Assembly: GCA_903925015.1 (NCBI GenBank) | Contig: CAIYDY010000176.1 | Span: 1-32,993, forward strand | Length of the DNA stretch: 32,993 nt | Direction of reading: 5' to 3' | DNA from: an uncultured Acidobacteriia bacterium | GTDB taxonomy: Bacteria; Acidobacteriota; Terriglobia; Bryobacterales; Bryobacteraceae | Part shown: piece by piece, positions 2-27,526 of the stretch | Layout: each line of letters begins with the position of its first letter | Numbering within the stretch: position 1 is the stretch's first letter | Translations under genes and position numbers: made by a program | The notes under the pieces: generated by a model | The model's input: only the letters and a program-made list of their open reading frames with translations | Databases searched by the model: none | What the model was told of the DNA's origin: nothing

Positions 2-586
2 AAGTCCGCGGGCGGGCCAACTTGGAGGCATCCCGCCATCTGGGCCTACGTCGCTGCGTATTCCCTCGGGGCCGCACCACTGGGGATGATCCTCTACTAC
101 GCATCCCTGTATTTAAGAGCCCGGTTCCACTATGATCAGGCAATGCTCGGCAAAGTGCTCTGGATTCCCCCGCTTGGCTGGGAACTGAGTTACTTCTTCT
201 GGGGTTTCGTTATCGACCGCGCTGGGCCAAGATTCCGCGAAATGCTGCTTGCCTGCACCCTGCTGAGCCTGCCCTTCGCGTTCATGAATTCTCTGCCCAC
301 AGGCCCACTCGTCCTGGCCGGTATGTTCATCGCCATGTTCGCCATGGCTGGATTCCTGGTGCTTTCGGTCGCATGGGTTACACGCGTATTCCCGCCGGAC
401 CACGCCGGGCTTCTATCCGGGATTGGTGCGGGCTCATGGAGCGCCGTCGTGGCCGTGACCAGCCCGGGCTTCGGCCTGCTGTTCGACCAGGCAAACTACG
501 CGACTGCTTTCCAGCTTGCGGCGCTCTTCCCGATCGCGGGATACGCGATCTGGTGGGTACTGCAGCGCCGGTGCCGGTTCCTGTAG
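2..586 (+). CDS. MFS transporter, C-terminal part (5' end outside window)
   Basis: The reading frame is open from the left edge of the window, so this is the C-terminal half of a longer protein rather than a gene starting at the first ATG (base 86). The translation is very hydrophobic, with about five or six membrane spans. A short loop, WGFVIDRAGPRF, has the D-R-G/P-R pattern of the conserved cytoplasmic loop of major facilitator superfamily transporters. The final span ends in a short basic tail (LQRRCRFL). The substrate cannot be told; sugar-phosphate or anion:cation symporter-type MFS proteins are possible. It converges with the peptidase gene downstream, with only about 30 bases between the stops. 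The MFS call is fairly safe; the transported molecule is unknown. Confidence 0.7.
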   Translation, partial: KSAGGPTWRHPAIWAYVAAYSLGAAPLGMILYYASLYLRARFHYDQAMLGKVLWIPPLGWELSYFFWGFVIDRAGPRFREMLLACTLLSLPFAFMNSLPTGPLVLAGMFIAMFAMAGFLVLSVAWVTRVFPPDHAGLLSGIGAGSWSAVVAVTSPGFGLLFDQANYATAFQLAALFPIAGYAIWWVLQRRCRFL

Positions 587-618
587 ACTTGGTTCGGCAC
601 CCGCGCTGGAGCTGAATA

Positions 619-2214: not shown

Positions 2215-2291
2215 CTTGTGGCAATTTTCGCACAACTTCCCTTCCGCGTGGACTGGCCGTCTACGGGATATCATAAAGGTCAGAACTATCC

Positions 2292-13349: not shown

Positions 13350-13426
13350 GCGCCCGTAGCTCAGTTGGATAGAGCGGCTGGCTTCGAACCAGTAGGCCGG
13401 GAGTTCGAATCTCTCCGGGCGCACCA
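13350..13426 (+). tRNA. tRNA-Arg(TCG)
   Basis: A complete 77-base cloverleaf. The acceptor GCGCCCG pairs with CGGGCGC. The D-arm contains GCTC...GAGC. The anticodon arm is GCTGG-CTTCGAA-CCAGT, with anticodon TCG reading CGA. The T-arm is GGGAG-TTCGAAT-CTCTC, the discriminator is A, and CCA is encoded. It lies 36 bases downstream of the SprT-like gene. tRNA genes are common integration points; the accessory DNA that follows (13.4-15.7 kb) begins right after it, though no second copy of the tRNA 3' end is visible in the window. Confidence 0.97.
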
Positions 13427-14053: not shown

Positions 14054-14302
14054 ATGGCTAGTCAGTTCGATTCCGAAGAACACCAGTTGATGGCCCAGTG
14101 GGTTGCTACTTGGCGTACCGCGAGCCCGGAGCTTGCCGCCGTGCGCCGTGCGGAATCCCGTTCGCTGGCTGTGCAGGAGGCTGTTCTCGATCTTTTTGAC
14201 GGCATGGATTCCGTCTTCACCGCTGTCGGTTCGACTACCTCGGGATTAGTGGAGCAGCAAATGTGGTTCTCCCGGCTGCGGGAATCCGGGACCGCGAAGT
14301 GA
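14054..14302 (+). CDS. small protein upstream of the nucleotidyltransferase (82 aa)
   Basis: An 82-residue soluble, mostly helical protein: RTASPELAAVRRAESRSLAV at residues 22-41, LDLFDGMDSVF in the middle and TTSGLVEQQMWFSRLRES at the end. The 'R...R...A...L.DLFD...' and 'TSGLVEQQ..F..L' elements look family-like, and the gene is coupled to the nucleotidyltransferase gene, whose likely GTG start overlaps this stop by four bases (GTGA). The start ATG at 14054 has an AGGA about 14 bases upstream. It is the first gene inside the segment bounded by the dnaE-tail repeats. By position it could be an antitoxin or subunit partner of the nucleotidyltransferase; unproven. Confidence 0.6.
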   Translation: MASQFDSEEHQLMAQWVATWRTASPELAAVRRAESRSLAVQEAVLDLFDGMDSVFTAVGSTTSGLVEQQMWFSRLRESGTAK

Positions 14303-14871
14303 ATGCCCTGTTGGATGCCGCAGTGGGCATTCAAAACCTCTTGGACCGGTTTGGTTGGCGCTACTGCATTATTGGCGGAATCGCATTGCTCAGATGGGGT
14401 GATGCCCGCTTGACCCGTGACGTGGATTTGGCCCTTCTAACAGGTTTTGGTCGCGAAGACGAGTTTACGATCCCTCTCTTGGATGCCGGCTATGTGGGAC
14501 GCATTCCAGATGCTGCCGCATTCGCCCGGCGCAACCGCGTCTTGCTCGTTACCGCGCCGAACGGAGTTCCGGTGGATATTTCGCTAGCGGCATTGCCCTT
14601 CGAGGCTCGGGCCGTGGAACGGGCGACTCACTTCGAGTTTGCTCCCGGATGTTCGCTCAAGACCTGTTCGGCTGAGGATCTCCTTGTATTCAAGTTGTTC
14701 GCGTTCCGCCCCCAGGATTTGGTGGACGTCGAATCGGTCGCGTCAAAATGGGGTCGATCCTTGGATTGGGCCTACGTGGAGGAGAACCTGGCACCTTTGG
14801 CGGAACTGAAGGAGACGCCAGCGATCATGCAGAAGTTGGCCGGATTGCAGCGGACGCACGAACGCAGTTGA
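14299..14871 (+). CDS. AbiEii-type / DUF6036-like nucleotidyltransferase
   Basis: About 190 residues from a GTG that overlaps the upstream stop by four bases; another GTG at 14263 is in frame. It has a nucleotidyltransferase (DNA polymerase beta-like) fold. The signature is IIGGIALLRWGDARLTRDVDL, with G26-G27 and the metal ligands D41-x-D43; a third acidic ligand is D93 in GVPVDISL. The segment KTCSAEDLLVFKLFAFRPQDLVDVES matches the C-terminal part of AbiEii/MenT-like toxins and related nucleotidyltransferases ('S.EDLI..K..A.R..D..DV..'). Family members transfer nucleotides to tRNA or proteins in abortive-infection and toxin-antitoxin systems. No AbiEi-type transcriptional repressor is next to it; instead there is the 82-residue protein before and an Abi-alpha-like protein after. 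Confidence 0.75.
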   Translation: MNALLDAAVGIQNLLDRFGWRYCIIGGIALLRWGDARLTRDVDLALLTGFGREDEFTIPLLDAGYVGRIPDAAAFARRNRVLLVTAPNGVPVDISLAALPFEARAVERATHFEFAPGCSLKTCSAEDLLVFKLFAFRPQDLVDVESVASKWGRSLDWAYVEENLAPLAELKETPAIMQKLAGLQRTHERS

Positions 14872-14911
14872 GCTGGGGCGCCTGCATGCCATCGCATGTT
14901 CATGTCTTTGG

Positions 14912-15724
14912 GTGGCAGGGCCGGTCCGGACCAAAAACTGTCTCCGATATGGAACATTTGATAGACTCATCCGTTTGGATCAGATAACTGCATACGTTGC
15001 GAACCTGGTACTTTCGGAAGCGGCGAGCTTCATGGCACGACTTGCGCGTCAGGAAATTAGGGACAGATTCCAAGATTGGAGTGAGCGCCGACAACAAAAT
15101 AGCCTTCAACTCTTTGAGCGGGCGGGCAGCTTCCTTCACAGCCGGGAAGTGCAGCCGAGTTGGCCACCTCCCAAACTTCTGGGAGCGATTCTTGAGTTCA
15201 GCACCCAGGAAGAAGACAGGACGCTTCAAGAAAAGTGGGCAGCTCTGCTCGCATCGGCGATGACTCCGACAGGAGGTCCAACGGTGCATCCATCTTTCCC
15301 AAGCATCCTCAGCAATTTCACCGTCGCGGACGCTTGGCTGCTGGACTGGTGCTATCAGCGCGCATGCACCAAGAATCGGGACGCCGACAACTATAATACG
15401 GAGATTGGCAGCGAGGAGGGCCTGCTTGGCGTGTTTCGCGGATCTCCCTTTGCCCGAAGTAAGGCCGCCGCGGTGCAACCGCAATGGACCAGAGATCACG
15501 TCGTCGAGTTCATGTCGACAAAAAAGGAGGACGACGGCAATGGTGCAATGGCCCTGGGCACGTTGGTAAGTTTTGGCTTGTTGAGACAACGCCAAGAAGA
15601 AGCCACTGAATACCAACGTTCCTACACGACGCTACTCTTAACGCCCTTGGGTTTCTGTTTCGCTGCCGCATGCCAACCCGGTTTGCGGGACATATACCCT
15701 GACGATATTGACGAAGGCTGGTAG
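14912..15724 (+). CDS. Abi-alpha/DUF4393-like protein
   Basis: Up to 270 residues from a GTG at 14912; an ATG at 15032 (residue 41) is an alternative. The best-supported segment is residues 86-117, PPPKLLGAILEFSTQEEDR then LQEKWAALLASAM, followed by HPSFPSILSNFTVADAWLLD. This is the core pattern of the Abi-alpha (DUF4393) family: 'P.K....IL..AS.E.D..LQ..WA.LLA.AM...HPSF..IL..L...DA..L'. Members are linked to abortive infection but the mechanism is not known. The C-terminal part (GTLVSFGLLRQRQ and LLLTPLGFCFAAACQ) resembles a winged-helix-like tail. It starts 40 bases after the nucleotidyltransferase and ends 7 bases before the convergent dnaE stop. Base use is clearly more A+T-rich than dnaE, consistent with transfer. 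Confidence 0.65.
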   Translation: MAGPVRTKNCLRYGTFDRLIRLDQITAYVANLVLSEAASFMARLARQEIRDRFQDWSERRQQNSLQLFERAGSFLHSREVQPSWPPPKLLGAILEFSTQEEDRTLQEKWAALLASAMTPTGGPTVHPSFPSILSNFTVADAWLLDWCYQRACTKNRDADNYNTEIGSEEGLLGVFRGSPFARSKAAAVQPQWTRDHVVEFMSTKKEDDGNGAMALGTLVSFGLLRQRQEEATEYQRSYTTLLLTPLGFCFAAACQPGLRDIYPDDIDEGW

Positions 15725-15731
15725 CCCCCCC

Positions 15732-18700
15732 CTACATCCCCATATTCTCCAACGTATCCACCCCGCAAATCCGCGTAATTTCAGCCCGGAACTCCTTGTC
15801 CGGACGCACCTTCGCCGGCACATCCAGAATCACCGTGAAATCGCGCTTCTGCTCCAACCGCAGCCGGACCTGCGTCTCCCCCGGCTTCCGGTCGAATAGC
15901 TTCTTCAATTCCGACACCCGGTCGATCCCATTCGGTGTTGCCAGAATCGGCACCTTGATCCCAATCAGCGACGGCATCGGCACCCGCACCACATCCAGCG
16001 GCACAATCTCCTTCACCGAAACCTTCGTCGGATTCCCGTCCTCCGGCAATGCCGACCCCCGGATCAGCGCCGCCACGTCCTCCTGCAGCATCGACTGCAA
16101 ATTCTCATACGACGTCGTGAAAACCATCCCCTCGATGGTCCCCATCCGGTCCTCGATCGTCATCGACGCCCAAGGTTTCCCCTCCTTGTTCCGTCGCCGT
16201 TGGATGGCCGTCAGCATGCCGCACAGCGTGACTTCGGCACCTTTCTCCAAACCTTCCATCGTCGCCGAATCCTGCTTCGCCAGTTCCGAAATCTTCTCCT
16301 GATAGGCGTCCAAAGGATGCCCGGTCACGTAGAACCCCAGCATCTCCTTTTCCCCATTCAGACTCTCCCGCAGCGTCCACGGATTGGCCTTCGGCAGCAC
16401 CGACTCCCTGGTCTCCGCCGTCATGATCGCCCCGAACAAACCCTCCTGGCCGCTCGCCCGATCCTTCGCCGCCCGGTTGCCCGCCTCCATCGCGCCGTCC
16501 AGACCCATCAGCAGCTGCGCGCGCGTGCCCTTCAGCCCATCCATCGCGCCCGCCTTCACCAAGCTTTCCAGCACGCGCCGGTTCACCTGGCTCAGGTCCA
16601 CTTCCTCGCACAGCTGGTACAACGACCGGAAACTGCCCACCTCCGTCCGGGCCTTGATAATCGCGTGCACCGCGTTCTCGCCCACGTTCTTCACCGCGCC
16701 CAGCCCGAACCGAACCGCGTCCCCCTGCTCGTCCCGCACCGGCGTAAACGTCAACTCGCTCGCGTTCACGTCCGGCGGCAGCACCCGGATGTTCATTTCG
16801 CGGCATTCGTTGATGTACTTCACGACTTTCGCCGTGTTCCCGGTTTCCGACGTCAGCAGCGCCGCCATGAAATCCACCGGATAGTGGGCCTTCAAATACG
16901 CCGTGACAAACGCCAGGAACGCATACGCCGCCGAGTGCGACTTGTTGAACCCGTATCCCGCGAATTGCTCCATCAAGTCGAAGATCTTGATAACCTTCTT
17001 CTCCGGATGCCCCCGCTCCAACGCGCCCTTCACGAAGCGCTCGCGCTGCTTCACCATCTCCTCCAACTTCTTCTTGCCCATCGCGCGGCGCAGAAGGTCG
17101 GCGTCGCCGAGCGAATAGCCCGCCACCCGGTTGGAGATTTGCATCACCTGCTCCTGATACAGAATGATGCCGAAAGTTTCGCCCAGCAGTTCCTTCAACT
17201 CGGGCAAATCGTAGATCACGGCCTTGCGCCCGTGCTTGCGCTCGATGAAGTCGTCGAGCATCCCGCCTTGGATCGGACCCGGACGGTACAGGGCGTTCAG
17301 CGCCGTCAAATCCTCGATCCGGCTCGGCTGGTAGCGCCGCAGAATGTCCCGCATTCCCGGCGATTCGAACTGGAACACCCCCGACGTGTATCCCTTGCAG
17401 AAGATTTCGTACGCCTTCGGGTCCTCCACCGGCAGGTCCTCGATCACCAACTGCACCCCGTGCCGCCGCTTGATCATCTTCAACGCGTCGTCGATCAGCG
17501 TCAGCGTCGTCAGGCCCAGGAAGTCCATCTTGAGGAGTTGGAGCTTGTCCAACCCGTTCATGTCGTACTGGGTGACGATTTCGTCCCGATTGGTGCGGCT
17601 CAGCGGCACCAGCGTCTTCAGCGGTTCCGGTGAGATCACCACACCCGCCGCGTGCACAGACGAGTTTCGAGCAAACCCCTCCAGCCGTTGCGCAATGTCG
17701 AGGAGTTCCTTGACCTTGGGGTCCCGCGCGGCGGCGTCGTTGAATCCAGGCTCCTGCTCGATCGCGTCCTTCAACTTGATGTTGAGTGTCTCGGGCACCA
17801 TCTTCGTCAGCTTGGAAACATCCGCCATGCTGAACTCCAGAACTCGCCCCACATCCTTGATTGCCGCGCGTGCGCCCAGCGTATTAAAGGTGATGATCTG
17901 CGCTACCTGCTCCCGACCGTACTTGCGAGTGACATATTGAATCACCTCGCCGCGCCGGTTCATGCAGAAGTCGATATCGATATCGGGCATGCTGACGCGT
18001 TCCGGGTTCAGGAACCGCTCGAACAGCAATCCATACTGCAGCGGGTCGATATCCGTGATCTTCATCACGTACCCGACCAAGCTGCCCGCCGCCGAGCCGC
18101 GGCCCGGTCCCACCGGACTATCAATCGATTTCGCGTAACGGATGAAGTCCCACACGATCAGGAAGTAACCCGAGAACTTCATGTTCTGGATCACCTGGAT
18201 CTCGAAATCGAGCCGTTTGACGTACTCCTCCAGGTCGTACTTCAGCCAGCCCGATGCCCGCAGCGCTTCCAAACGCGGACGCCGCTGCTCAAACCCTTGC
18301 CGAGCCACGTAGGCGAAGTACGAATCGGTGTCGAAGGTCGGCGGAATGTCGAAGCGCGGGAACGGGTCCTTGACCTTGTCGAGTTTGATCGCGCACCGTT
18401 GGGCGATTTCCCAGGGGCGGTCGACCGCATCCTCCAATTCGCCGAACAACTCCATCATTTCGGGCCGCGTCTTCAGGTAGAAGGCGGGGTTGTCCCAGTG
18501 CATCCGGTTGGGGTCCGAAATGGTCTTGCCCGTGGAGATGCACATCAGGATCTCGTGGGCGCGGGCGTCGGTCTTGCGGAGGTAATGCGCGTCGTTGGTG
18601 GCGACCAGCGGGATGCCGGATTCGATGGAGAGCCGGTTGATGGCGGGGATGAGGCGCTTGTCCTGTTCCAGACCGTGGTCCTGGATTTCGAGGAAGAAGT

Positions 18701-19205
18701 TGTCCTTGCCGAACATGTCGCGGTAGGTGTGGGCAAGGCGGCGCGCGTCGTCATGCTTCTCGGCGAGGACGGCCTCATTGAGGTCGCCCCGGAGGCAGGC
18801 GGACATGCAGATCAGGCCCTTGGAGTGCTGGGCGAGCAGATCCTTGTCGATGCGTGGCTTGTAATAGAAACCTTCGAGGTAGGCGGTCGAGACGAGGTCG
18901 ATGAGGTTGCGGTAGCCCTCCTGGTTTTCGCAGAGGAGGACGAGGTGGTTGTAGCGGTCGGAGGTGGTGCGGGATTTGTGGTCGGTGGCGACGTAGACCT
19001 CGCAGCCGATCACGGGATGGACGCCGTTGGCCTTGGCGGTGTTGTAGAACTGGACGGCCCCGAAGAGGTTGCCATGGTCGGTCATGCCGACAGCGGGCAT
19101 CTTCTGCTCGGCGCAGAGCTTCATCAGCTGGTCGATTTCGCAGGCCCCGTCGAGCAGGGAGTAGTCGGTGTGGTTGTGCAGGTGTACGAAGGGGGGTTCG
19201 GCCAT
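15732..19205 (-). CDS. dnaE: DNA polymerase III alpha subunit
   Basis: The replicative polymerase catalytic subunit, 1157 residues, full length. Domains in order: PHP (1 to about 210, starting FVHLHNHTDYSLLDG, with MTDHGNLFGA and NDAHYLRK), the palm with GPGRGSAAGS (367-376) and the catalytic aspartates in P-D408-I-D410-I-D412-F, the fingers/thumb with GYGFNKSHSAAYA, the tandem helix-hairpin-helix region, the OB domain near 990-1070, and a short C-terminal tail ending DTLENMGM. There is no extra exonuclease domain, so it is DnaE1-type. Codon choice is C-ending for roughly the first 260 codons and G-ending afterwards. A diverged copy of its last 45 bases lies at 13982-14026. Confidence 0.97.
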   Translation of the reverse strand: MAEPPFVHLHNHTDYSLLDGACEIDQLMKLCAEQKMPAVGMTDHGNLFGAVQFYNTAKANGVHPVIGCEVYVATDHKSRTTSDRYNHLVLLCENQEGYRNLIDLVSTAYLEGFYYKPRIDKDLLAQHSKGLICMSACLRGDLNEAVLAEKHDDARRLAHTYRDMFGKDNFFLEIQDHGLEQDKRLIPAINRLSIESGIPLVATNDAHYLRKTDARAHEILMCISTGKTISDPNRMHWDNPAFYLKTRPEMMELFGELEDAVDRPWEIAQRCAIKLDKVKDPFPRFDIPPTFDTDSYFAYVARQGFEQRRPRLEALRASGWLKYDLEEYVKRLDFEIQVIQNMKFSGYFLIVWDFIRYAKSIDSPVGPGRGSAAGSLVGYVMKITDIDPLQYGLLFERFLNPERVSMPDIDIDFCMNRRGEVIQYVTRKYGREQVAQIITFNTLGARAAIKDVGRVLEFSMADVSKLTKMVPETLNIKLKDAIEQEPGFNDAAARDPKVKELLDIAQRLEGFARNSSVHAAGVVISPEPLKTLVPLSRTNRDEIVTQYDMNGLDKLQLLKMDFLGLTTLTLIDDALKMIKRRHGVQLVIEDLPVEDPKAYEIFCKGYTSGVFQFESPGMRDILRRYQPSRIEDLTALNALYRPGPIQGGMLDDFIERKHGRKAVIYDLPELKELLGETFGIILYQEQVMQISNRVAGYSLGDADLLRRAMGKKKLEEMVKQRERFVKGALERGHPEKKVIKIFDLMEQFAGYGFNKSHSAAYAFLAFVTAYLKAHYPVDFMAALLTSETGNTAKVVKYINECREMNIRVLPPDVNASELTFTPVRDEQGDAVRFGLGAVKNVGENAVHAIIKARTEVGSFRSLYQLCEEVDLSQVNRRVLESLVKAGAMDGLKGTRAQLLMGLDGAMEAGNRAAKDRASGQEGLFGAIMTAETRESVLPKANPWTLRESLNGEKEMLGFYVTGHPLDAYQEKISELAKQDSATMEGLEKGAEVTLCGMLTAIQRRRNKEGKPWASMTIEDRMGTIEGMVFTTSYENLQSMLQEDVAALIRGSALPEDGNPTKVSVKEIVPLDVVRVPMPSLIGIKVPILATPNGIDRVSELKKLFDRKPGETQVRLRLEQKRDFTVILDVPAKVRPDKEFRAEITRICGVDTLENMGM
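15735..15779 (-). repeat. dnaE 3' end (direct repeat, right copy)
   Basis: The last 15 codons of dnaE before the stop, matched by 13982-14026 at 37 of 45 positions. The two copies enclose about 1.7 kb holding the 82-aa protein, nucleotidyltransferase and Abi-alpha-like genes. If the segment came by integration, this is the copy that keeps dnaE intact. Confidence 0.65.
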
Positions 19206-19297
19206 GGGGGCGGGGGTGTCCTTATTTTAGCGGAGTGGGTGTTAAGACTCCATTTTTGGATAGGCACAGCGGTCGTACTCGGTCAGAGTCTGCCATC

Positions 19298-19358
19298 CCA
19301 AAAGTCGGGTCGCTGTGCGGGGCGCGCACAGCCCAACAAGCCGTGTGCCCGCTTTTGG
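19298..19358. repeat. nested inverted repeat between dnaE and the methyltransferase
   Basis: The inner arms GCTGTGCG (19312-19319) and CGCACAGC (19325-19332) form a perfect eight-base stem. The outer arms CCAAAAG-T-CGGG (19298-19309) and CCCG-CTTTTGG (19348-19358) pair with one bulged base. This lies in the 294-base stretch (19206-19499) upstream of both dnaE and the methyltransferase gene. In that stretch I see no gene, only this structure and A+T-richer DNA. It could be a regulatory site for the methyltransferase, a terminator, or an old element end. Confidence 0.45.
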
Positions 19359-19499
19359 AGACACCTTCAAAGGCCCAACCGGTGTGGTAGATTTGGAACG
19401 ATACTTGAGGAGCACTTGTGCTGATGCACGTTGCAATGACAGACCCAGTGTGCAGTCACGTCACGGATTTCCAGATGAGTACCATCAGCTAAAGCAGTC

Positions 19500-20600
19500 A
19501 TGACCATCTGCAGTGAGTTCGTACCAGATCCGTCAACCAACCCGGCTCACGGGATGCGCCCTCGCGGTTCCGTGGTGGACATCTTCTGCGGCGCTGGAGG
19601 GTTAAGCCACGGGTTTCGCCTTGAGGGCTTTCGGATCGCTGCTGGGATAGATATTGACGAGGGTTGCAGGTATCCATTTGAATTCAACAACCGAGCGCCT
19701 TTTGTGCGGAAGGATGTTGCTAGTCTTGATCCCATTGAAGTATCTCAGCTATTTTTTCGTGATGAACCAAAGGTTCTAGTCGGCTGTGCCCCATGCCAGC
19801 CATTCTCTACGTATAATCAGGGCATAGATGACCCTAAGTGGAAACTGGTAGGCGTATTTGCTCGGCTCATTGCCGAGACGCGACCCGATATTGTCTCGAT
19901 GGAGAATGTGCCTCGCTTGGTTGACTTTCAGGGAGGTGCCATTTTCGAAGACTTCTTGTTGGCACTGCGGAATTGCGGCTACAGCATCTCCTACAAAATA
20001 GCGTTCCTGCCTGACTACGGCGTGCCCCAAGCAAGGTCTAGGCTAATACTATTAGCATCTAGGCACGGTCGGATCACCCTACCGGATCCTACGTGCGAGT
20101 CGAGCGATTATCCAACGGTCGACTCCGCCATTTCAGGGTTACCTCCTTTGGCTGCTGGCGCAACGGACGTCTCCGATCCGTTGCATCAAGCCAGTCGGCT
20201 TTCCGCCCGCAACTTGGCTAGAATCCGTCAAGCGCGTCCGGGCGGGTCTTGGAAGGAATGGCCAGAATCTTTGGTTGCCGATTGCCACAGGCGCGAGCGC
20301 GGGAAAAATTACCTATCCGTGTACGGTCGGATGCGCGGTGATCGGCCAGCCCCTACGATCACCACTCAATTTTTCGGCTTTGGTAACGGTCGCTTCGGAC
20401 ATCCAACGCAAGATAGAGGACTCAGTTTGCGAGAGGGTGCGCTTCTCCAGTCTTTTCCCGCAAGCTATTCCTTTGTTCCTCCTGGGATGCGGGTGCACTT
20501 CAAGGCGCTGGGTAAGATGATCGGTAACGCTGTCCCGGTCACATTGGCAAGGCAGATCGCGCGATCTATCCAGCATCATATTAGCGGAGTAGGGTTGTGA
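19500..20600 (+). CDS. DNA (cytosine-5) methyltransferase
   Basis: 366 residues. The C5-methyltransferase motifs are in normal order: I DIFCGAGGLSHGF (27-39), IV GCAPCQPFS with catalytic Cys99, VI ENVP (135-138), VIII QARSRLILLA (177-186), a target-recognition region of about 90 residues, IX RPAPTITTQF and X IGNAVPVTLARQIA. It transfers a methyl group from S-adenosylmethionine to cytosine in a sequence-specific site that cannot be read from the protein. The start is ATG 19500; ATG 19554, just before motif I, is an alternative. Its stop overlaps the GTG start of the GHKL-nuclease gene by four bases, so the two form one unit. Base use is visibly more A+T-rich than in the flanking chromosome, a sign of transfer. 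Confidence 0.93.
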   Translation: MTICSEFVPDPSTNPAHGMRPRGSVVDIFCGAGGLSHGFRLEGFRIAAGIDIDEGCRYPFEFNNRAPFVRKDVASLDPIEVSQLFFRDEPKVLVGCAPCQPFSTYNQGIDDPKWKLVGVFARLIAETRPDIVSMENVPRLVDFQGGAIFEDFLLALRNCGYSISYKIAFLPDYGVPQARSRLILLASRHGRITLPDPTCESSDYPTVDSAISGLPPLAAGATDVSDPLHQASRLSARNLARIRQARPGGSWKEWPESLVADCHRRERGKNYLSVYGRMRGDRPAPTITTQFFGFGNGRFGHPTQDRGLSLREGALLQSFPASYSFVPPGMRVHFKALGKMIGNAVPVTLARQIARSIQHHISGVGL

Positions 20601-22582
20601 CACCCCATTTCGAATTGACTATTAGCCTTAATGTCTTGGAGCATCTGGGCATCAACCTGTACAGCAATGTGCCATCGGTTCTTTCAGAAATTGTCGCCAA
20701 TGCTTGGGACGCAGATGCCGAACTGGTCAACGTATCTTGGGACCGCACCAACGACCGTATCATCATTCACGACGATGGGACGGGAATGACACCGGCGGAA
20801 GTTAACGACCGGTTTCTAAAGGTTGGCCACCGACGGCGAGACTCTCAACCCGGCTCTACGCCAAGAGGTCGTCGCCCCATGGGGCGAAAGGGCATCGGCA
20901 AGCTTTCGCTATTTTCAATTGCGGGTACCGTCGATGTAGAGACCGTGCGTGACAATCAGCGCAGCGCATTCAGGATGAAGCTGGCAGACATCCGCAGGCA
21001 AGTTGCAAGCGAGGGTGGCTCTGGAACGTACTTGCCTGTGCCACTTCCCAGCTCCGCTATTGACTTCCCGCATGGCACAAGGATCACGCTCACAGATCTT
21101 CGCCACAGGCAGACCACAGCTACGAGCCGTGCCCTGCGGAAGCGAATAGCGCGGCGGTTTTCGATACTGGGTGCCGCTTATGATTTCAGAGTCGTTATCG
21201 ATGGCCACGAGGTCGTTCCCGCAGATCGAGACTACTACGACAAGTTGCAGTATATCTGGACCTATGGCGACCAAGGCGGCATTCTGGAGCTAGCCAATTC
21301 AGCAGCGGAGATCGAGCCTCGGCAGATTGGCCCTCAAATTGGAATTAATTTGACCGGGTGGCTTGGCACTGTCAAAGAATCCCGCCAGCTCCGGGACGAA
21401 GATGGAGACAATCTAAATCGAATTGCTGTCTTCACGCGCGGCAAGCTTGCCCAAGAAGACATTTTAGCCGATTTCTCTGAACGAGGGGTCTATGCTAGTT
21501 ATTTGATCGGTGAGCTTCGCACCGATGACCTAGACAAGTACGACGGACCGGGCACGGAATTCGATGAAGACGCTGCGACGAGCAGTCGGCAGCGGCTAGT
21601 CGAGGATGATGCGAGATATCAAGCACTGAAGACATTTCTGGCGACAGAACTCAAGCATATCCAGAATAGATGGAGCGAGTGGCGAGCCGAGGACGGAGCA
21701 AAGAGCGCTCTTGAGATTCCTGCTGTGCGTGACTGGATGCAGCAACTACAGCCAGCAGTCAGGGCAAAAGCCCGCAGGTGGTTGGGCAAGCTTAACCGAA
21801 TAAAGATGGATGATGTTGGCGAACGGAAGCAGCTGATAAAGCATGCGGTTCTCGGGTTTGAGTTTTACCGTTTGCACGAGAACTTGGATGCCCTCGATAG
21901 TATCTCGGACGAGACTATGGTGACTGCCATGGCCCTGTTCCAAGAACTGGATGGACTTGAAGCCAACCTATACGGGCAGATTGTTCGCCAGCGTATACAA
22001 GTGATCCAAACGCTCCAACAGCGCGTGGACGAGAACGCACTGGAGCGAGCGATTCAAAAATACTTGTTTGATCATCTCTGGCTACTAGACCCATCTTGGG
22101 AACGGGCTGAGGGTACTCAAGTGATGGAGACGCGAGTACAAACGCTTTTCGAATCCCTTGATGCGGATCTTACCGAAGACGAGCGACGGGGCCGATTGGA
22201 CATTGCCTATCGGAAGGCGGCTGGGGAGCACGTAATAATTGAACTCAAGAGGCCGGAGCGAGTTGTTACGAAGACCGAGATGATAGAGCAGTCGGAAAAG
22301 TACCTCTCGGGCATGCTGCGCTTGCTTGAGGCTCAGGGAACCCCATACGAACCAATTGAGATTGTTTTTGTTCTCGGCAAGCCTCCCAAGGAGTGGGGCA
22401 ACGGAGTAGGCGCCAAAGAGCGGATGACACGTCAGCTTCAGGAACAACACGCTCGGGTCGTCTTCTACGATGAGCTCCTTACAAATGCCGAGAAGGCCTA
22501 TAAGGATTACTTAGAGACGCGCGGTGCCGTTGACAAACTGGGACAGGTTATTGCGGCGATTGACGACTATTCCGTGGGCTGA
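20597..22582 (+). CDS. GHKL (MORC/MutL-like) ATPase fused to a PD-(D/E)XK nuclease
   Basis: 661 residues from a GTG start. The N-terminal GHKL ATPase has Glu31 and Asn35 in SEIVANAWDADAE (motif N), DDGTGM at 59-64 (motif I) and GRKGIGKLS at 96-104 (the lid motif). A middle S5-like and helical region follows. The C-terminus (about 480-640) reads as a PD-(D/E)XK nuclease: ERAIQKYLFDHLWLLDPSWE helix, R-L-D535-I-A-Y, then V-I-I-E549-L-K551-R-P, followed by a helix and EIVFVLGKP. Bacterial MORC-like GHKL proteins next to methyltransferases were proposed as restriction components (Iyer, Abhiman and Aravind 2008, cited from memory). This unit fits that scheme: the ATPase would drive conformational change or translocation and the nuclease would cut unmodified DNA. 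It is coupled to the methyltransferase and converges with the HigA-like gene 23 bases on. Confidence 0.88.
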   Translation: MTPHFELTISLNVLEHLGINLYSNVPSVLSEIVANAWDADAELVNVSWDRTNDRIIIHDDGTGMTPAEVNDRFLKVGHRRRDSQPGSTPRGRRPMGRKGIGKLSLFSIAGTVDVETVRDNQRSAFRMKLADIRRQVASEGGSGTYLPVPLPSSAIDFPHGTRITLTDLRHRQTTATSRALRKRIARRFSILGAAYDFRVVIDGHEVVPADRDYYDKLQYIWTYGDQGGILELANSAAEIEPRQIGPQIGINLTGWLGTVKESRQLRDEDGDNLNRIAVFTRGKLAQEDILADFSERGVYASYLIGELRTDDLDKYDGPGTEFDEDAATSSRQRLVEDDARYQALKTFLATELKHIQNRWSEWRAEDGAKSALEIPAVRDWMQQLQPAVRAKARRWLGKLNRIKMDDVGERKQLIKHAVLGFEFYRLHENLDALDSISDETMVTAMALFQELDGLEANLYGQIVRQRIQVIQTLQQRVDENALERAIQKYLFDHLWLLDPSWERAEGTQVMETRVQTLFESLDADLTEDERRGRLDIAYRKAAGEHVIIELKRPERVVTKTEMIEQSEKYLSGMLRLLEAQGTPYEPIEIVFVLGKPPKEWGNGVGAKERMTRQLQEQHARVVFYDELLTNAEKAYKDYLETRGAVDKLGQVIAAIDDYSVG

Positions 22583-22605
22583 TAATCAGGGTGCCATCTA
22601 CGACC

Positions 22606-22935
22606 TCAAGCCGCCGGTCGCCGCAAAGGCAGGAACCGCACTTCCACCCGACTATTCAACGCCGCCGCGATCCGCCTCAACATCGCCATCGAATGTCCCT
22701 CGTAGTCGGCATCCTCCAGCCGACTAATCACGGACGCCGTCGTGCCGACCAGCTTCGCCAACTGGGCCTGCGTCAGTCCCGCTTTTGCCCGCAGCTTCTG
22801 GATCTTGCGCGCGGTCGCATCGTTGGCCCGAGCTTCCTCAAGCGCGGCGATCCGCTCGGGTTGTCCCTCGTAGAATTCCCGGTGCAGGATCTCCAAGCCA
22901 TCGGTTGTCGCAGTTTCGATTGTCTCCATGTTCAT
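22606..22935 (-). CDS. HigA/XRE-family antitoxin
   Basis: A 109-residue helix-turn-helix protein. The XRE/Cro domain spans about 41-95: ARKIQKLRAKAGLTQAQLA, then LVGTTASVISRLEDADYEG and MLRRIAAAL. The N-terminal 40 residues form an acidic helix with FYEGQPERIAALEEARAND, likely the toxin-binding part. It probably neutralises the toxin encoded just upstream and represses the operon. The ATG start overlaps the toxin stop by four bases (ATGA). The toxin-first order is typical of HigBA-like modules. It converges with the GHKL-nuclease gene. Confidence 0.85.
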   Translation of the reverse strand: MNMETIETATTDGLEILHREFYEGQPERIAALEEARANDATARKIQKLRAKAGLTQAQLAKLVGTTASVISRLEDADYEGHSMAMLRRIAAALNSRVEVRFLPLRRPAA

Positions 22936-23318
22936 TCTCCTCGTCGTCCAATTCTCTCCAGCGTGTGGGTGGCGGGATCCGCTTCGAACAGTGCCTTCCG
23001 ACGGATCGCCAAATTGATTTCCCGCTCCGGCACTTCCCGTTCCTTCACCAGTCCGTGCGACACAATCGCCGCTGCCTTCCCGTGGAAAAAGTACAGCACC
23101 CTAAAGTGCCGTCCCCGCGTGCTGGCCCGCAACTCGTAGATACCGTCCCGCAGGTAATCCGCTTCGGGACGCCGCAAAGCGTGCCCCAACGATGCAAGGC
23201 GCTCCAAACGGACAAGGACCTTATCGCGCGCCTGATCCTGCAACTCGCGAAACCATTCCACAAATGGAGCTTGGCCAGTGGCCTCGCGGTAAAAGATCAA
23301 TCGCAGACGGTTCTCCAC
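22932..23318 (-). CDS. HigB/RelE-superfamily toxin (phage Gp49-like)
   Basis: About 128 residues. The GTG at 23318 gives MENRLRLIFYREATGQAPF; a TTG at 23339 is an alternative. Features of the Gp49/HigB family: FVEWFRELQDQARDKVLVRL, YLRDGIYELRAS, the basic active-site strand RGRHFRVLYFFHGKAAAIV and HGLVKEREVPEREINLA. These toxins usually cut mRNA in the ribosomal A site; the Arg/His-rich strand would hold the catalytic residues. No lesion is seen, so the pair may be active. It diverges from the VapB-like gene, with about 60 bases of shared promoter space. Confidence 0.85.
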   Translation of the reverse strand: MENRLRLIFYREATGQAPFVEWFRELQDQARDKVLVRLERLASLGHALRRPEADYLRDGIYELRASTRGRHFRVLYFFHGKAAAIVSHGLVKEREVPEREINLAIRRKALFEADPATHTLERIGRRGE

Positions 23319-23377
23319 GTACCACCAGTGTGGTCGCAAATTTGCGATGTGTCAAGCTCCGCAACGTGGTCACGCTG

Positions 23378-23626
23378 ATGCGGGTCTGCGACGCTTTTGA
23401 AATCTCTCCCGACCAACGCGCCACGGTCGAAGCGCTTCTCGGACGCGCCATCGCCCAAAACGAGCAAATCAGCGTCCGCGCGTTGCCTGTAGCTCCGGAA
23501 GCATCACCGGAACGCCGGGCCGAGATCATTGCCGAGATGGACGCCTACTTCGCCCGAATCGACGCCAAGCGCAGCAACCTCTCTGATGAGGAGGCTGACG
23601 AACTCATAATGCTTGACGCAGAGTAA
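23378..23626 (+). CDS. VapB-like antitoxin for the downstream PIN toxin
   Basis: About 82 residues, beginning at the ATG at 23378, where the sequence takes on a natural look: MRVCDAFEISPDQRATVEAL, then LGRAIAQNEQISVRALPV and EIIAEMDAYFARID. The frame is open further upstream, but that part overlaps the HigB-like gene antisense. A short acidic antitoxin with 'S..QR..VEALLGR' and a C-terminal acidic tail, 39 bases before a PIN-domain gene, points to a VapBC-type pair. The toxin partner is frameshifted, so this may be an orphan antitoxin. Confidence 0.6.
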   Translation: MRVCDAFEISPDQRATVEALLGRAIAQNEQISVRALPVAPEASPERRAEIIAEMDAYFARIDAKRSNLSDEEADELIMLDAE

Positions 23627-23665
23627 GGCTCTGCGCTCCACAAGACCAAACTACCGGCCCGTCCG

Positions 23666-24095
23666 GTGAGTATTCTGTGCGACGGCAACATCCTGTTCCG
23701 CGCCAATGAAAAGGCGACCGGCCCGGCCCGACGGCTCGTCAGAACGATTCTGCTCCAAGGCCGCGTGTTGCTGGTCAGCGGCGAAATGCTGGTCGAGCTT
23801 GCCCGAGTCCTGTAGGTATCCCCGCCTCCGGGCCCACTTCGGCCTCACTGAGGAGGAGATCTATGCTTACGTTCAGTACTTGCGACAAGTGGCCCACGTG
23901 GTCCGCCCCAGTCCAACCGTGAAGGCTCCGATGGGCGACGCCAATGACGTCTTCATCCTGCAGACCGCCGTAGTCGGGGATGCCGACGTGACTTGCACGT
24001 GGGACGCGGACTTCTACGACCCGAAGACTTTGGCCTTCTGCGCAAGATTGGGGATCCATGTGTGCGATGACCGAGCACCTATTGAACCGGCATGA
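23666..24095 (+). pseudogene. PIN-domain (VapC-like) toxin, frameshifted
   Basis: Two frames together give one PIN protein of about 142 residues. The first, from GTG 23666, reads MSILCDGNILFRANEK to VSGEMLVELARVL and meets TAG at 23813-23815. The second continues at 23814 with RYPRLRAHFGLTEEEIYAYV and ends HVCDDRAPIEPA. One extra T at about 23813 (CTG-T-AGG) separates them. PIN acidic residues are present on both sides: Asp6 (CDGN), D-A-N-D in PMGDANDVFIL and D-A-D in TCTWDADFYD. Without the extra base it would be a Mg-dependent RNase toxin of the COG1569 type. As it stands the product stops after 49 residues and lacks most of the active site. Confidence 0.75.
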
Positions 24096-24220
24096 GCGGC
24101 ACGCGTGCAACTAAGAAGCGGACGGGCCGCGCGGGACGCGGCTCCAAGTGAGGGAGGAACCGGTTCGCGGCCAAGTCGTCCGCGGTTCCTGAAAAGAAGG
24201 CTAAAGAAGACCTCGTCTGA
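24092..24220 (+). pseudogene. small Lys/Arg-rich ORF interrupted by an in-frame TGA
   Basis: An ATG at 24092 overlaps the PIN stop by four bases (ATGA) and opens MSGTRATKKRTGRAGRGSK, then TGA (24149). The same frame continues GRNRFAAKSSAVPEKKAKED and LV to TGA at 24218. The composition is uniformly basic on both sides of the first stop, as if one codon (perhaps CGA) had become TGA in a 42-residue basic protein. It may instead be a real 19-residue peptide or chance. The rest of 24096-24241 holds nothing else I can identify. Confidence 0.3.
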
Positions 24221-24241
24221 CCGCGCTACAATCACGACGGT

Positions 24242-24562
24242 ATGACCACGGATTCCCCCTACGTAGACTTTCGGTCGGGCGGCTACTATGTGGCCGGGAC
24301 CCGCGTGTCCCTTGATTCCATCGTGTACAGTTTCCGCAGTGGCGACAGCCCGGAAACCATCCAGCGGAACTTCAATACGCTCACCTTGGAGCAGGTCTAC
24401 GGCGCAATCGCATTCTACTTGCGGAACCAGGATGAGGTCGACCGCAATATTTTGGATGGCGAGGCGGCACTCCGGCGGCTGGTACCCTCGTTGAGCCAAC
24501 GGAACCCCGCGCTATGGGAACGGCTGCAGTCAGCCCGGGTGCAAGCAGGGCACATCGCCTGA
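24242..24562 (+). CDS. DUF433 antitoxin
   Basis: A 106-residue protein. DUF433 is clear: YYVAGTRVSLDSIVYSFRSG, then SPETIQRNFNTLTLEQVYGA and IAFYLRNQDEVDRNI. These small winged-helix proteins are the antitoxin side of pairs with DUF5615 (Mut7-C/PIN-like) toxins. The C-terminal 35 residues are the usual variable tail. The start is ATG at 24242. Its stop overlaps the first codon of the DUF5615 remnant, as in intact pairs. It has no lesion, so it is an orphan antitoxin beside a dead toxin. Confidence 0.85.
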   Translation: MTTDSPYVDFRSGGYYVAGTRVSLDSIVYSFRSGDSPETIQRNFNTLTLEQVYGAIAFYLRNQDEVDRNILDGEAALRRLVPSLSQRNPALWERLQSARVQAGHIA

Positions 24563-24778
24563 GCATCAAGTTCCAAGCCGACAATGACCTGAACCGGATC
24601 ATTGTGGCGGCGGTACTCCGCCTGGAGCCCGCAATCGACTTTCAAACAGGCCGACTACACCGCATTCCACGGCGTGGATGATCAAGCGGTCTTGCGGCGA
24701 GCCTCAGAGCAGGGACGGATTCTGGTCACACACGACAAGCGGACGATGCCCGGCCATCTCGCCGACTTTCTTCGGTAG
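24559..24778 (+). pseudogene. DUF5615 PIN-like toxin, broken three ways
   Basis: The frame from 24559 reads SIKFQADNDLNRIIVAAVLR up to DFQT, then, after one extra G at about 24649, ADYTAFHGVDDQAVLRRASE, GRILVTHDKRTMPGHLADFLR. These are the DUF5615 landmarks: 'IKF.AD..LN..I', 'G..D..VL..A...GR.L.THD..TMP'. Three defects are visible. The expected ATG overlapping the DUF433 stop is CTG. There is a one-base insertion. The C-terminal part after LADFLR is missing, because the sequence switches within a few bases into the surface-protein remnant. The gene is dead. Confidence 0.75.
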
Positions 24779-27526
24779 TGGTAGCTTCACCGTTGCTGCA
24801 ACTTCGGATTCCGGACTAGCGGTCAGTTTCTCCACCTCCACCAATACGGCCTGCACCGTCACGGGTACTACAGTTGCGCTGATTGGTCTCGGCGTTTGCA
24901 CCATCCAAGCCGATCAGGCGGGCAACTCGGGCTATGCGCCCGCTACCTCGGTTTTCCGAACCTTTACGGTCTATCAGCTTTCCCAAACGATTGCCTTCGC
25001 CGCTCCCTCGGACCGCCCCCTCGGAGTTGCCCCGTTCACCCTCGGAGCCACCGCATCGTCCGGCCTCGCCCCCTCCTACTCCGTTGTTCCGTCGCTGATT
25101 GACGTCCAGTTCGGCTGCACGGCCGGAACTCAATGCGCCGGGTCCACCGGCAACGCCTCCACTCTCCAACAGTCCGGTGCGGCCGTCATCGGCAAAGCTG
25201 GTGATGTCTGGAACATGGTTTCCGGCGTCGGCGGACTCGGCACTACCGGTACCAACGTCCCGTTGACGGACTCCACCGGAACCCCCTCGCCAGTCAGCGT
25301 GAGCTGGACCTCCGATCTGCTCTATACCGTCGGTACCAGACCCGGCAATTTTGGCAGCACTCAATACCGGAATCTGATGAGTGCCTACCTTGTGAACCAT
25401 GTCGGGCAACCTTCCCGTTCCATCACGATCTCCGGCCTGATTCCAGGTGCATCCTACGACCTCTACATGATCACGCAGGGCGATGTCGGTGCGAACACCC
25501 GTAGAACATCCTTTGCCGTCAACGGCGGGACAGTCGTCTCAACCACGGCTGGCGCAGACATCGGCACATACGTCAACGGACAGAATTACGTCCGTTTGAA
25601 TGCCGTGGCCAACAGCTCCGGTGTCCTCAACGTCGTGTGGCGGGTGGTATCCGGCGAAGCCAACGTCAACGGCTTCCAGCTGGCAGGCAGCTTCGCCTGC
25701 AGTGTTTCGGGTTCAACCGTGACGCTTTCGGGCATTGGCCCCTGCACCATCCAAGCCTTGCAGCCGGGCAATGCCAGTTACTCAGCCGCCACACCTGTTA
25801 CCCGCACTTTCAATGTCTTGCAGACCGTAACGATCCTCACGACACCTGTGAATTTGAAGGTGAGCGTGGATGGCGCAACCGCCCAGTCCGCTCCGGTCAC
25901 CGTGAACCTGACTGTCGGCTCCCACACCGTCTCGGTCGACCCGGCCCCGCAGACCGGAACCCCCGCTAGCCCCGGCACCCAGTATGTCTGGAGTCAATAG
26001 AGCGATGGTCTGCCTATCTCCCATACCGTAACCGTCGGCGCGTCGGCACCCACGTACACGGCCGCCTTCCAAACCCAGTACCAATTGACAATGGACCTTG
26101 CCGCCGGCTCGCTGGGCACCACGACGCCGCCTTCTGGAAACTACTACAACGCGGGCTCGTCGGTCCCCGTCACCGCAAATCCGGGTAGCGGGTGGGCGTT
26201 CCAGTCATGGTCCGGCCCAGTGGCTGCCCCGTCGGCGACCTCCACCACCGTTACCATGAGTGCCCCGCGGTCGGTCACCGCAACCTTTGTCCGGGCACCC
26301 TCGATCCTCTTCCAATCGCTGGTCGATGGTTCAGCCTCAACCAAAATCATGGTCAGCGTTGACGGAGGCACTCCCAAGCTCACACCCTTCACCCTGAACC
26401 TGTCGGCAGGCCCCCATACGGTTTCAACCGTGGCGACTCAGCCGGGTAACTCAGGCACGCAGTACGTCTTGACGGGCTGGAGCGCCAACGTCGGCAATGG
26501 CGGTGCCATCACCATCGGTGGCACTGCCGACACCTACACCGCCAGCTTCGCGACCCAATACCAGTTGACGGTCGGGACCGCGTCCGGGGGCTCGGTCACC
26601 GCTCCGGCTTCCGGCGGCTACTACGCATCCGGGGCTGCTGTCACGATCACCGCCGTGCCGGCCGCCGGCTACGCTTTCAGTTCGTGGAGTTCCACCGGCC
26701 CAGCCACGCTCGCGAACTCCGGCAATGCGTCCACCACTTTGACCATGGGATCGGGTGTGCAGAAAATTACCCCGGTCTTCGTGGCTTTGTCGGGTATCAC
26801 CGTCTTGACGAATCCATCCGGTCTGAAGGCCCAGATCACGCTGAATGGAATCACTCAGTCCACGTTCCCGGCAAACCTCGCGCCCGGTGCCGCTCCGACC
26901 ATCTCCGTAGCTGCAACCCAGACTCTGGCAACAGACCCAGCCGGTGTCCGGTATGTGTTTACCGGTTGGGAGAACAGCTCCACGAATCCCTCGCGCCTGA
27001 TCACCGTCGGCACCTCGGCCGCCACGTACACGTCATCCTTCGCCAAGCAGGTCTTGGTTACAGCCCAACCACTGCCCTCCACGACAGCGGGTTCCGGCTA
27101 CACCTTCTCCACATTCGGAGTCACACTGGGAACCACAAACCCGGCAACGTTCGTGGCAAATGCCCCGACGGCACTTTCAGCCAACTTCACCCAAACCGCG
27201 CCCCCGCTGGTATTTGGTATCCTCGGGGCTACGGACGGTGGGCCCGCTATCCAGTTCAACATCTCGGCGGGCAGCAAACTCCAAGGTAGTGTGAACGTTA
27301 CAACCAAGCTCGTCATCACGGTTGTGAGCGGCACCGGGTCGGTGACTCCGGCCTACTCCAATTCGACTCCGTTCCTGATCGACGCACACACCGGCGTCGG
27401 ATACCTCGTACCGCTGAAAGTGGCGGGGACCGTGAAAAAATCACGGTTACCTACACTGTCACAGCTACCGACCAAGCCAACCACCAGTTCACCTACACGA
27501 ACCTGCTTCCGTATTCACTTCCATAG
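24774..27526 (+). pseudogene. decayed repeat-rich surface protein (Ig-like and InlB B-type repeats)
   Basis: A large extracellular protein gene without its 5' end. It enters mid-repeat at GSGSFTVAATSDSGLAVSF, with no signal peptide. Recognisable parts: an Ig-like unit (to TFTV at about 24975), a second unit split by about 200 foreign residues, then several repeats of the divergent InlB B type (YQLT...GSVTAP..GGYYASGAAVTITA...GYAFSSWS). Two lesions break the frame. TAG at 25998 stands where VWSQWSDG-like context expects TGG, and the same frame resumes directly. An A6 run at 27435-27440 looks one base short; restoring it gives ITVTYTVTATDQ to NLLPYSLP and a stop at 27524. Adhesion or matrix roles are typical. 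The intact PEP-CTERM gene follows 34 bases on. Confidence 0.75.

Follow-up and report, generated by a model that had tools for sequence, protein, structure and literature searches.

Why does a family of restriction enzymes that is filed with ordinary Type II systems keep an intact GHKL ATPase? This question is raised by two adjoining genes on contig CAIYDY010000176.1 (assembly GCA_903925015.1) of an uncultured Acidobacteriia bacterium of the Bryobacteraceae, which were analyzed within a stretch of 32,993 nucleotides, referred to here as the window. The first gene encodes a C5 DNA methyltransferase, and the second a protein of 661 residues that appears to join a GHKL ATPase and a nuclease in one chain (coordinates are given in Table 1). 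Type II cleavage is site-specific and, classically, ATP-free. In our view, to which we attach a probability of roughly 78%, the pair is a two-gene Type II system of the BbrUII/HgiDII family, in which the methyltransferase would protect, most likely at GTCGAC, and the GHKL-nuclease protein would cut unmethylated sites. The pair itself is ordinary and adds another member to a restriction family that is already curated; the interest lies in the ATP question and in a branch of the family that is embedded in DISARM operons.

An earlier description of this locus, called here the sequence-only reading, held that a complete C5 methyltransferase gene overlaps the start of the gene for the large protein, and the open reading frames (ORFs) bear this out. 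The methyltransferase matches Pfam DNA_methylase (8.2e-55) and TIGR00675 (120.1 bits; cut-off 100.65), and its P98-C99-Q100 and E135-N136-V137 are invariant in 15 rows. Against NF050001, the NCBIfam model named 'BbrUII/HgiDII family restriction enzyme', the large protein scores 788.9 bits where the curated cut-off is 550, in a match that runs end to end (residues 5-655 against model positions 1-659), and it also matches PADLOC REase_II with 298.3 bits. ORFs, Pfam and NCBIfam together give the neighboring methyltransferase and endonuclease genes by which a Type II restriction-modification system is recognized. Judged from its sequence, the large protein is a member of a known, curated and little-studied Type II restriction family. 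The statement that few such systems have been studied needs qualifying, since the specificity of M.HgiDII (PMC5867850) and mutants of VcSduA (PMC12137116) are reported in the accessible parts of these papers.

The methyltransferase also offers a clue to the recognition site. Its residues 275-301, YGRMRGDRPAPTITTQFFGFGNGRFGH, fit YGRx8T(LIM)x9GRxGH, a motif that is not exclusive to GTCGAC and that the portion of PMC2413257 available to us describes as conserved in GTCGAC C5 methyltransferases. GTCGAC is therefore the best guess for the site. According to the available parts of the respective papers, M.HgiDII is a reported GTCGAC m5C enzyme (PMC5867850), and GTCGAC is reported as the sequence recognized by M.BbrUII (PMC5005818).

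The GHKL motifs of the large protein lie at the residues that the sequence-only reading had given, and residues 26-137 match Pfam HATPase_c_3 (5.3e-20). An AlphaFold2 model of the whole protein (mean predicted local distance difference test score, pLDDT, 87.5; predicted template modelling score, pTM, 0.76) supports the view that the N-terminal half is a MORC/Hsp90-like ATPase: the modelled residues 8-366 align best with MORC3 (5ix2; Z 23.3, root-mean-square deviation 3.9, 296 residues aligned), followed by MORC2 and then by Hsp90 and SMCHD1 at Z of about 20-21. A sequence search of solved structures with the large protein gave weak matches only, the best being an Hsp90 at E 0.0056. In the model, this half is followed by the helices H339-371, H375-382, H386-401, H407-433 and H438-476. 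The label 'MORC-like', which had been given to the unit, thus holds for the ATPase fold; membership of the MORCs proper was rejected. In the text available to us, PMC2292703 gives GhXhhpXXRhl in the S5 domain as the signature uniting MORCs; a regular-expression search found it in 0 of the 89 aligned rows of the family described below, and the window protein reads RIAVFTRGKLA in the matching region. The paraMORC3 group and the curated family NF050001 are the labels that fit. The ATPase half has MORC3 and MORC2 as its nearest structural matches (Z from 23.3 down to about 20), which would suit a MORC-like clamp that condenses DNA and carries a vestigial nuclease, but the missing S5 signature and the near invariance of the nuclease residues make such a clamp highly improbable.

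The motif D535...E549-x-K551 in the C-terminal half, which had also been named in the sequence-only reading, is present, and E483 completes it to E-D-ExK. The models place E483 in a helix and the other residues on a hairpin, whose first strand carries D535 and whose second strand ends with E549-x-K551. None of these four residues was part of the patterns that recruited the aligned rows. The nuclease domain modelled alone reaches a pLDDT of 87.0 and a pTM of 0.82. Conserved, well-placed catalytic residues, together with middling fold matches, suggest that the C-terminal half is a PD-(D/E)XK nuclease, and the proposal that the two genes form a restriction unit, in which one chain unites a GHKL ATPase with this nuclease, is supported.

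The relatives of the enzyme were sampled as the best 80 of at least 538 (594 stretches), giving the 79 closest genome loci. A quick method was used to build a tree of 89 rows, the rows being the window, 9 of the 14 viral loci, 77 of the 79 genome loci and two extra enzyme copies from locus L059; L086 and L103 (both cut), the plasmid and phage loci, and L002 stand outside this alignment. Homologues do not routinely lack a methyltransferase neighbor: a C5 methyltransferase lies within 500 nt of the enzyme gene in 52 of the 79 closest loci, and 12 more enzyme genes stand beside a drmMI homologue. In these 52 loci the methyltransferase is placed upstream in tandem (48), convergently (3) or downstream (1), and the target-recognition motif is exact in 44, has YAR for YGR in four, and is missing or cut by a contig end in four. 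As a control, albeit a small one, none of five more distant C5-type matches in the same loci (L063, L071, L091, L092 and L096) carries the motif. The remaining 27 loci consist of 12 in DISARM operons, one with too little flank, and 14 without a C5 methyltransferase within 500 nt; as these 14 have no drmMI either, the link to a methyltransferase is strong but not universal. The distances among methyltransferases and those among enzymes are correlated (r = 0.717 over 65 linked pairs, with 0 of 2000 permutations as high; L001, L015, enzyme matches below 600 bits and methyltransferase matches below 400 bits were left out), which, since linked genes share their history, shows joint inheritance. The window groups with L010, then with L031 and L037, and then with four more rows, and a C5 methyltransferase adjoins the enzyme gene in all eight rows of this set, being cut by a contig end in one of them.

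Initially, 25 of the 89 tree rows seemed to have no C5 methyltransferase. Twelve of them and the contig-edge row L088 are embedded in DISARM operons, L045 and L094 lie by MZB-domain genes, and L073 lies by Druantia genes. The partnerless remainder is made up of seven Cenarchaeum rows and L060, L064 and L066, the neighbors of all these rows having been scanned for chosen ORFs; an AspBHI-type gene is present near L060. L063 and L071, which were counted apart, have a weak, motif-less C5-type match 1.9 kb away. The Cenarchaeum-labelled record OY282369.1, a metagenome-assembled genome record of 3.17 Mb (loci L058, L059, L068, L071, L074, L090 and L104), holds nine full-length enzyme copies and one partial copy, three of them within 12 kb (L059). 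No strong C5 methyltransferase was found in its stretches, one enzyme copy has no D535, and transposase genes lie near the enzyme copies in L059 and L074.

It should be noted that several findings weigh against the two-gene GTCGAC reading. Cleavage and methylation by the pair are predictions from its genes, and the conservation of the GHKL residues is partly circular, since the recruiting patterns lay in the GHKL motifs. Structure prediction, proposed as a check in the sequence-only reading, supports the GHKL half, but the outcome for the nuclease half is middling: EndoMS, at Z 7.8, and then 8ti9, the Shedu nuclease, at Z 7.5 with 140 residues aligned, match it best but fall below the mark of 8 set by the tool, and BspD6I (Z 6.7) and FokI (Z 6.2) follow with non-nucleases such as RPB5 (Z 6.8) between. 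As Foldseek with the nuclease domain alone returned nothing at E <= 0.001, the fold assignment draws on the residues, the secondary structure and these Z values. No difference from the BbrUII/HgiDII systems was found, the comparison having been made through the family profile rather than with the sequences of R.HgiDII and R.BbrUII. The NF050001 cut-off is also passed by the DISARM-embedded L082 (874.7 bits) and by a Cenarchaeum L059 copy without a C5 methyltransferase (767.1 bits), so that the profile does not separate the contexts and a match to it is by itself no proof of a GTCGAC two-gene system; the assignment as such a system depends on the adjoining methyltransferase, and the NF050001 score provides the family placement. 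Furthermore, the accessible text of PMC2413257 gives nearly the same motif, but with GRxLH, for M.TspMI, which recognizes CCCGGG, and the genome shows no shortage of GTCGAC, with 2264 sites versus 1726 of the reversed control CAGCTG.

These last two points favor the possibility that the pair is the same two-gene restriction system acting at another site, as does the absence of the motif from the C5 methyltransferases beside some family members (L091, L092 and L096 by profile; L091 and L096 also by Pfam). We consider this rather unlikely, since GRxGH, the form given for GTCGAC enzymes, is what the window methyltransferase carries, and the enzyme family is named for HgiDII and BbrUII, which are reported GTCGAC systems in the accessible literature. 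Avoidance of GTCGAC was tried as proof of specificity and set aside: the counts show none, the 2264 sites lie within the range of the genus (482-4109; raw counts in genomes of 4.2-7.7 Mb), and the result is uninformative, neither supporting nor refuting the site.

A Shedu-like defense would dispense with the protecting role of the methyltransferase, which would then be a loose companion, while phage DNA would be attacked on a cue other than an unmethylated site. This would agree with the match of the nuclease domain to 8ti9, with the existence of family branches without an adjoining C5 methyltransferase, and with VcSduA, a protein of like architecture that defends as a single protein according to the parts of its description at hand. 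The match of the nuclease domain to the Shedu family PF14082 (DUF4263/SduA_C), although detectable at 16.1 bits, is below the cut-off of 27, however, and the presence of a methyltransferase in all eight rows around the window, the joint inheritance of the two genes and their 4-nt overlap all speak against this reading. We therefore regard a Shedu-like mode of action as improbable.

If the two-gene Type II reading is correct, the methyltransferase would protect the DNA of the host by methylating a cytosine of the recognition site, for which GTCGAC is the likeliest sequence. GHKL domains normally dimerize upon ATP binding; the GHKL/S5 half would bind ATP and be expected to form a closed dimer with the DNA inside, the helices of the linker would relay the movement of the ATPase to the nuclease half, and each chain would contribute one C-terminal PD-(D/E)XK site to the cutting of both strands of the unmethylated palindromic site. 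The best experimental precedent for such a coupling of ATPase and nuclease is provided by VcSduA, for which the available text of PMC12137116 reports that the substitutions E27A and K557A each abolished phage defense, so that both activities are needed. No ATP requirement of HgiDII or BbrUII was found in the literature consulted, which included passages of PMC5867850, PMC5005818 and PMC4618763, and passages of PMC11779793, PMC12373910 and PMC7559349 had no bearing on the question: the term ATP occurs 0 times in the accessible text of PMC5867850, and likewise 0 times in that of PMC2413257 and PMC7559349, which treat other enzymes. With two genes and probably one site, the pair would allow ATP gating of a restriction nuclease to be assayed cleanly, in a simple relative of MutL, MORC and the GHKL-Shedu proteins.

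Table 1. Positions in the window of the probable restriction pair, its motifs and domains, and the neighboring features
Feature	Position	Strand	Basis
C5 DNA methyltransferase gene, 366 aa	19500..20600	+	ATG start; ORF list, Pfam, NCBIfam
Target-recognition motif YGR-x8-TI-x9-GRFGH, methyltransferase residues 275-301	20322..20402	+	regular expression
4-nt overlap GTGA, methyltransferase stop and large-protein start	20597..20600	+	sequence, ORFs
BbrUII/HgiDII-family restriction enzyme gene, 661 aa	20597..22582	+	GTG start; NF050001, PADLOC REase_II
Predicted GHKL ATPase and S5/transducer half, residues 8-366	20618..21694	+	HATPase_c_3, model, MORC3 alignment
N-box E31...N35	20687..20701	+	89/89 rows; region helped to recruit rows
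G1 motif DDGTGM, residues 59-64	20771..20788	+	D59, G61, G63 and M64 in 89/89 rows
G2 motif GRKGIGK, residues 96-102	20882..20902	+	G96, G99, G101 and K102 in 89/89 rows; part of a recruiting pattern
Predicted helical linker region, residues 339-476	21611..22024	+	helices in model
Putative C-terminal PD-(D/E)XK-type nuclease domain, residues 472-661	22010..22579	+	own model, structural matches
E483, first acidic residue of E-D-ExK	22043..22045	+	89/89 rows
D535, first hairpin strand (533-541)	22199..22201	+	88/89 rows; strand in model
E549-L-K551, end of second strand (544-551)	22241..22249	+	E549 in 89/89, K551 in 88/89 rows
Segment replacing other DNA of the sister genome, between dnaE and HTH/Gp49 pair	19240..22603		blastn
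dnaE	15732-19205	-	flank of methyltransferase gene
HTH/Gp49 toxin-antitoxin-like pair	22606-23339	-	flank of enzyme gene; Pfam
DUF433 gene with sub-threshold PIN-like neighbor	23706-24562	+	Pfam

The proposal that the pair was acquired by horizontal transfer, originally made because its DNA is richer in A+T, is supported by three observations. First, the G+C contents of the methyltransferase and enzyme genes are 0.545 and 0.538, and their G+C contents at third codon positions are 0.553 and 0.579, compared to 0.669-0.855 in 11 other, hand-picked ORFs of the window. Second, only one of the 19 genus genomes, that of the window itself, passes the cut-off of the enzyme family. The same is true of two of 61 relatives overall, and of three of 396 genomes in a draw across the phylum, the window's own counted; short matches at a contig end in a genome of the same genus (G014) and, contig-cut and beside a methyltransferase, in one of the same order (G043) may be cut copies. 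Third, when window positions 15001-26000 were compared by blastn with the sister genome G018 (L130), whose DnaE N-terminus is 98% identical to that of the window, positions 15731-19239 matched at 87.4% and 22604-23356 at 89.9%, with nothing between. The slot between dnaE and the HTH/Gp49 pair, which measures 3.36 kb and contains the restriction pair in the window, measures 1.84 kb in G018 and has no blastn similarity to it; as the same flanks enclose unrelated DNA, the slot is a site of turnover. In four other genus-mates, blastn similarity was confined to dnaE. The position next to dnaE, part of the original description, is thus real but incidental, since none of five genus-mates has this DNA upstream of dnaE in blastn. 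A silenced or decayed restriction enzyme is a common fate of transferred systems, and the methyltransferase might accordingly be active beside a silent or decayed enzyme. Sigma-70-like promoter patterns show no excess over chance (3 found versus 2.2 expected), which is in line with such a state, although the test is a weak one; the full-length open frame and intact catalytic residues of the window enzyme make it very unlikely.

The restriction pair is part of a small defense and toxin-antitoxin island. On the minus strand of the slot in G018 (L130 5034-6044) lies a gene for a protein of 336 residues with an LLGAGASR-like motif near its start, which we take to be reminiscent of SIR2-type defense proteins; within the limits applied, this protein had no match in Pfam (0.1), NCBIfam (0.001) or PADLOC (0.01). 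At the other end of dnaE, window positions 14263-15724 contain an AbiEii-like nucleotidyltransferase (25.6 bits; cut-off 22.5) and an Abi_alpha protein (65.8 bits; cut-off 29) in DNA of lower G+C content, and a tRNA-Arg gene (anticodon TCG; 13350-13426) lies near the left edge of this lower-G+C DNA.

A different fate of the enzyme is seen in the DISARM branch. Thirteen of the 89 rows (L013, L075, L076, L078, L081, L082, L083, L084, L085, L088, L093, L097 and L099) form a branch without a C5 methyltransferase in the stretches examined (Shimodaira-Hasegawa-like approximate likelihood ratio test 99, quick tree) that is embedded in DISARM operons. A homologue of drmMI, an adenine methyltransferase gene, lies upstream in 13 of 13 loci, being weak in L088 (134 bits), and drmA follows directly downstream of the nuclease gene in 11 of 13; L075 and L083 instead have drmD and an unknown gene in between, with DrmA about 5 kb further. 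DrmA exceeds its own curated cut-off in all 12 genomes of the non-viral members, and a homologue of a KAP-type NTPase stands between drmMI and the nuclease in L013, L075, L078, L084 and L085 (named by Pfam in L075). This arrangement suggests that DISARM has taken over a restriction enzyme as a nuclease. The idea that the nuclease is a core DISARM part was rejected. Among 399 genomes drawn order-wide around one carrier, six had DrmA over the cut-off, and the nuclease was present in 0 of the 5 non-carriers among them and in 0 of 13 genomes with any DrmA match at E <= 1e-100, the carrier excluded; the nuclease is an optional accessory of some DISARM systems.

As far as the accessible text of PMC9142583 goes, DrmC is dispensable in DISARM, the recruitment of a nuclease is a mystery, and other PLD nucleases of the host have been proposed. 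In the parts of the literature available to us that link DISARM with GHKL, drmMI, drmD or an ATP-binding accessory gene, this gene was not seen reported as part of DISARM. We tentatively propose, as a conjecture with somewhat less than an even chance of being right, that this family of ATP-gated nucleases is portable and passes from one defense system to another, and that one branch has parted from its C5 methyltransferase and now serves as an optional DISARM nuclease after drmMI and before drmA, where DrmA/DrmB or the state of adenine methylation, instead of unmethylated GTCGAC, would license the GHKL half. If true, some DISARM systems would gain the executing nuclease that the DISARM structure paper left open, and the ATP gate could be studied in the window pair as the simple form with two genes.

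Other relatives of the pair were also found among defense genes or on mobile elements. L045 and L094 adjoin MZB-domain (drmB-type) genes, L045 also following DrmA and PLD genes, and a Deinococcus plasmid carries, one after another, the restriction pair, a Vsr gene, drmC, a DUF1998 gene and drmA. On a Rubrobacter marinus plasmid (L073 / L026; 62-4799 of L073), a member is accompanied by Druantia genes, one for a helicase of DruE type (939 bits) and one for a PD-(D/E)XK protein of DruK type (92 bits). On a Microvirga terrae plasmid (L141 2482-20475), a relative of the window methyltransferase (53% identity) and Vsr head a DISARM operon, whose slot between an MmeI-type gene and drmA holds another 'ATP-binding protein' and an 'O-methyltransferase'. 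Escherichia phage PhiR44_1 (L009, 5992-9040; P2-type gene names) carries a convergent homologous pair, labelled ParaMORC3 and Dcm in GenBank, between portal and replication genes. In the viral contig L018 (5004-6856), the methyltransferase frame is open, whereas the enzyme frame of the homologue, with 58% identity in the best segment, is split in two, so that this copy is probably broken.

How, then, does the window pair compare with known systems? It shares with the MORC ATPases the predicted fold of residues 8-366, but it differs from them in the S5 signature, and we know of no MORC with a restriction nuclease. From DISARM it differs in being flanked by dnaE and the HTH/Gp49 pair instead of drm genes, no drmA, drmB or drm methyltransferase adjoining it; the likeness lies in the 13-row branch of the same enzyme family. 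VcSduA (Shedu type I-D), as described in the accessible part of PMC12137116, has an N-terminal GHKL ATPase and a C-terminal PD-(D/E)xK nuclease in the same order as the 661-residue protein, whereas a methyltransferase partner is unmentioned there and its DUF4263 domain is sub-threshold in the window protein. For paraMORC3, the available text of Iyer, Abhiman and Aravind 2008 (PMC2292703) describes an N-terminal GHKL and S5 module followed by a restriction-fold domain with E-D-ExK, and the large protein, compared with this description rather than with the seeds of the paper, appears to have the same architecture: all ATP-binding motifs are present, S5 is seen through structural alignment with the MORC modules, and the C-terminal domain has E-D-ExK with a middling fold match. 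The paper speaks, in that text, of standalone members, whereas the largest branch free of a C5 methyltransferase is found here in DISARM operons. Finally, the pair resembles the BbrUII/HgiDII systems both in an enzyme that passes the NF050001 cut-off over its full length and in an adjoining C5 methyltransferase with a GTCGAC-type motif.

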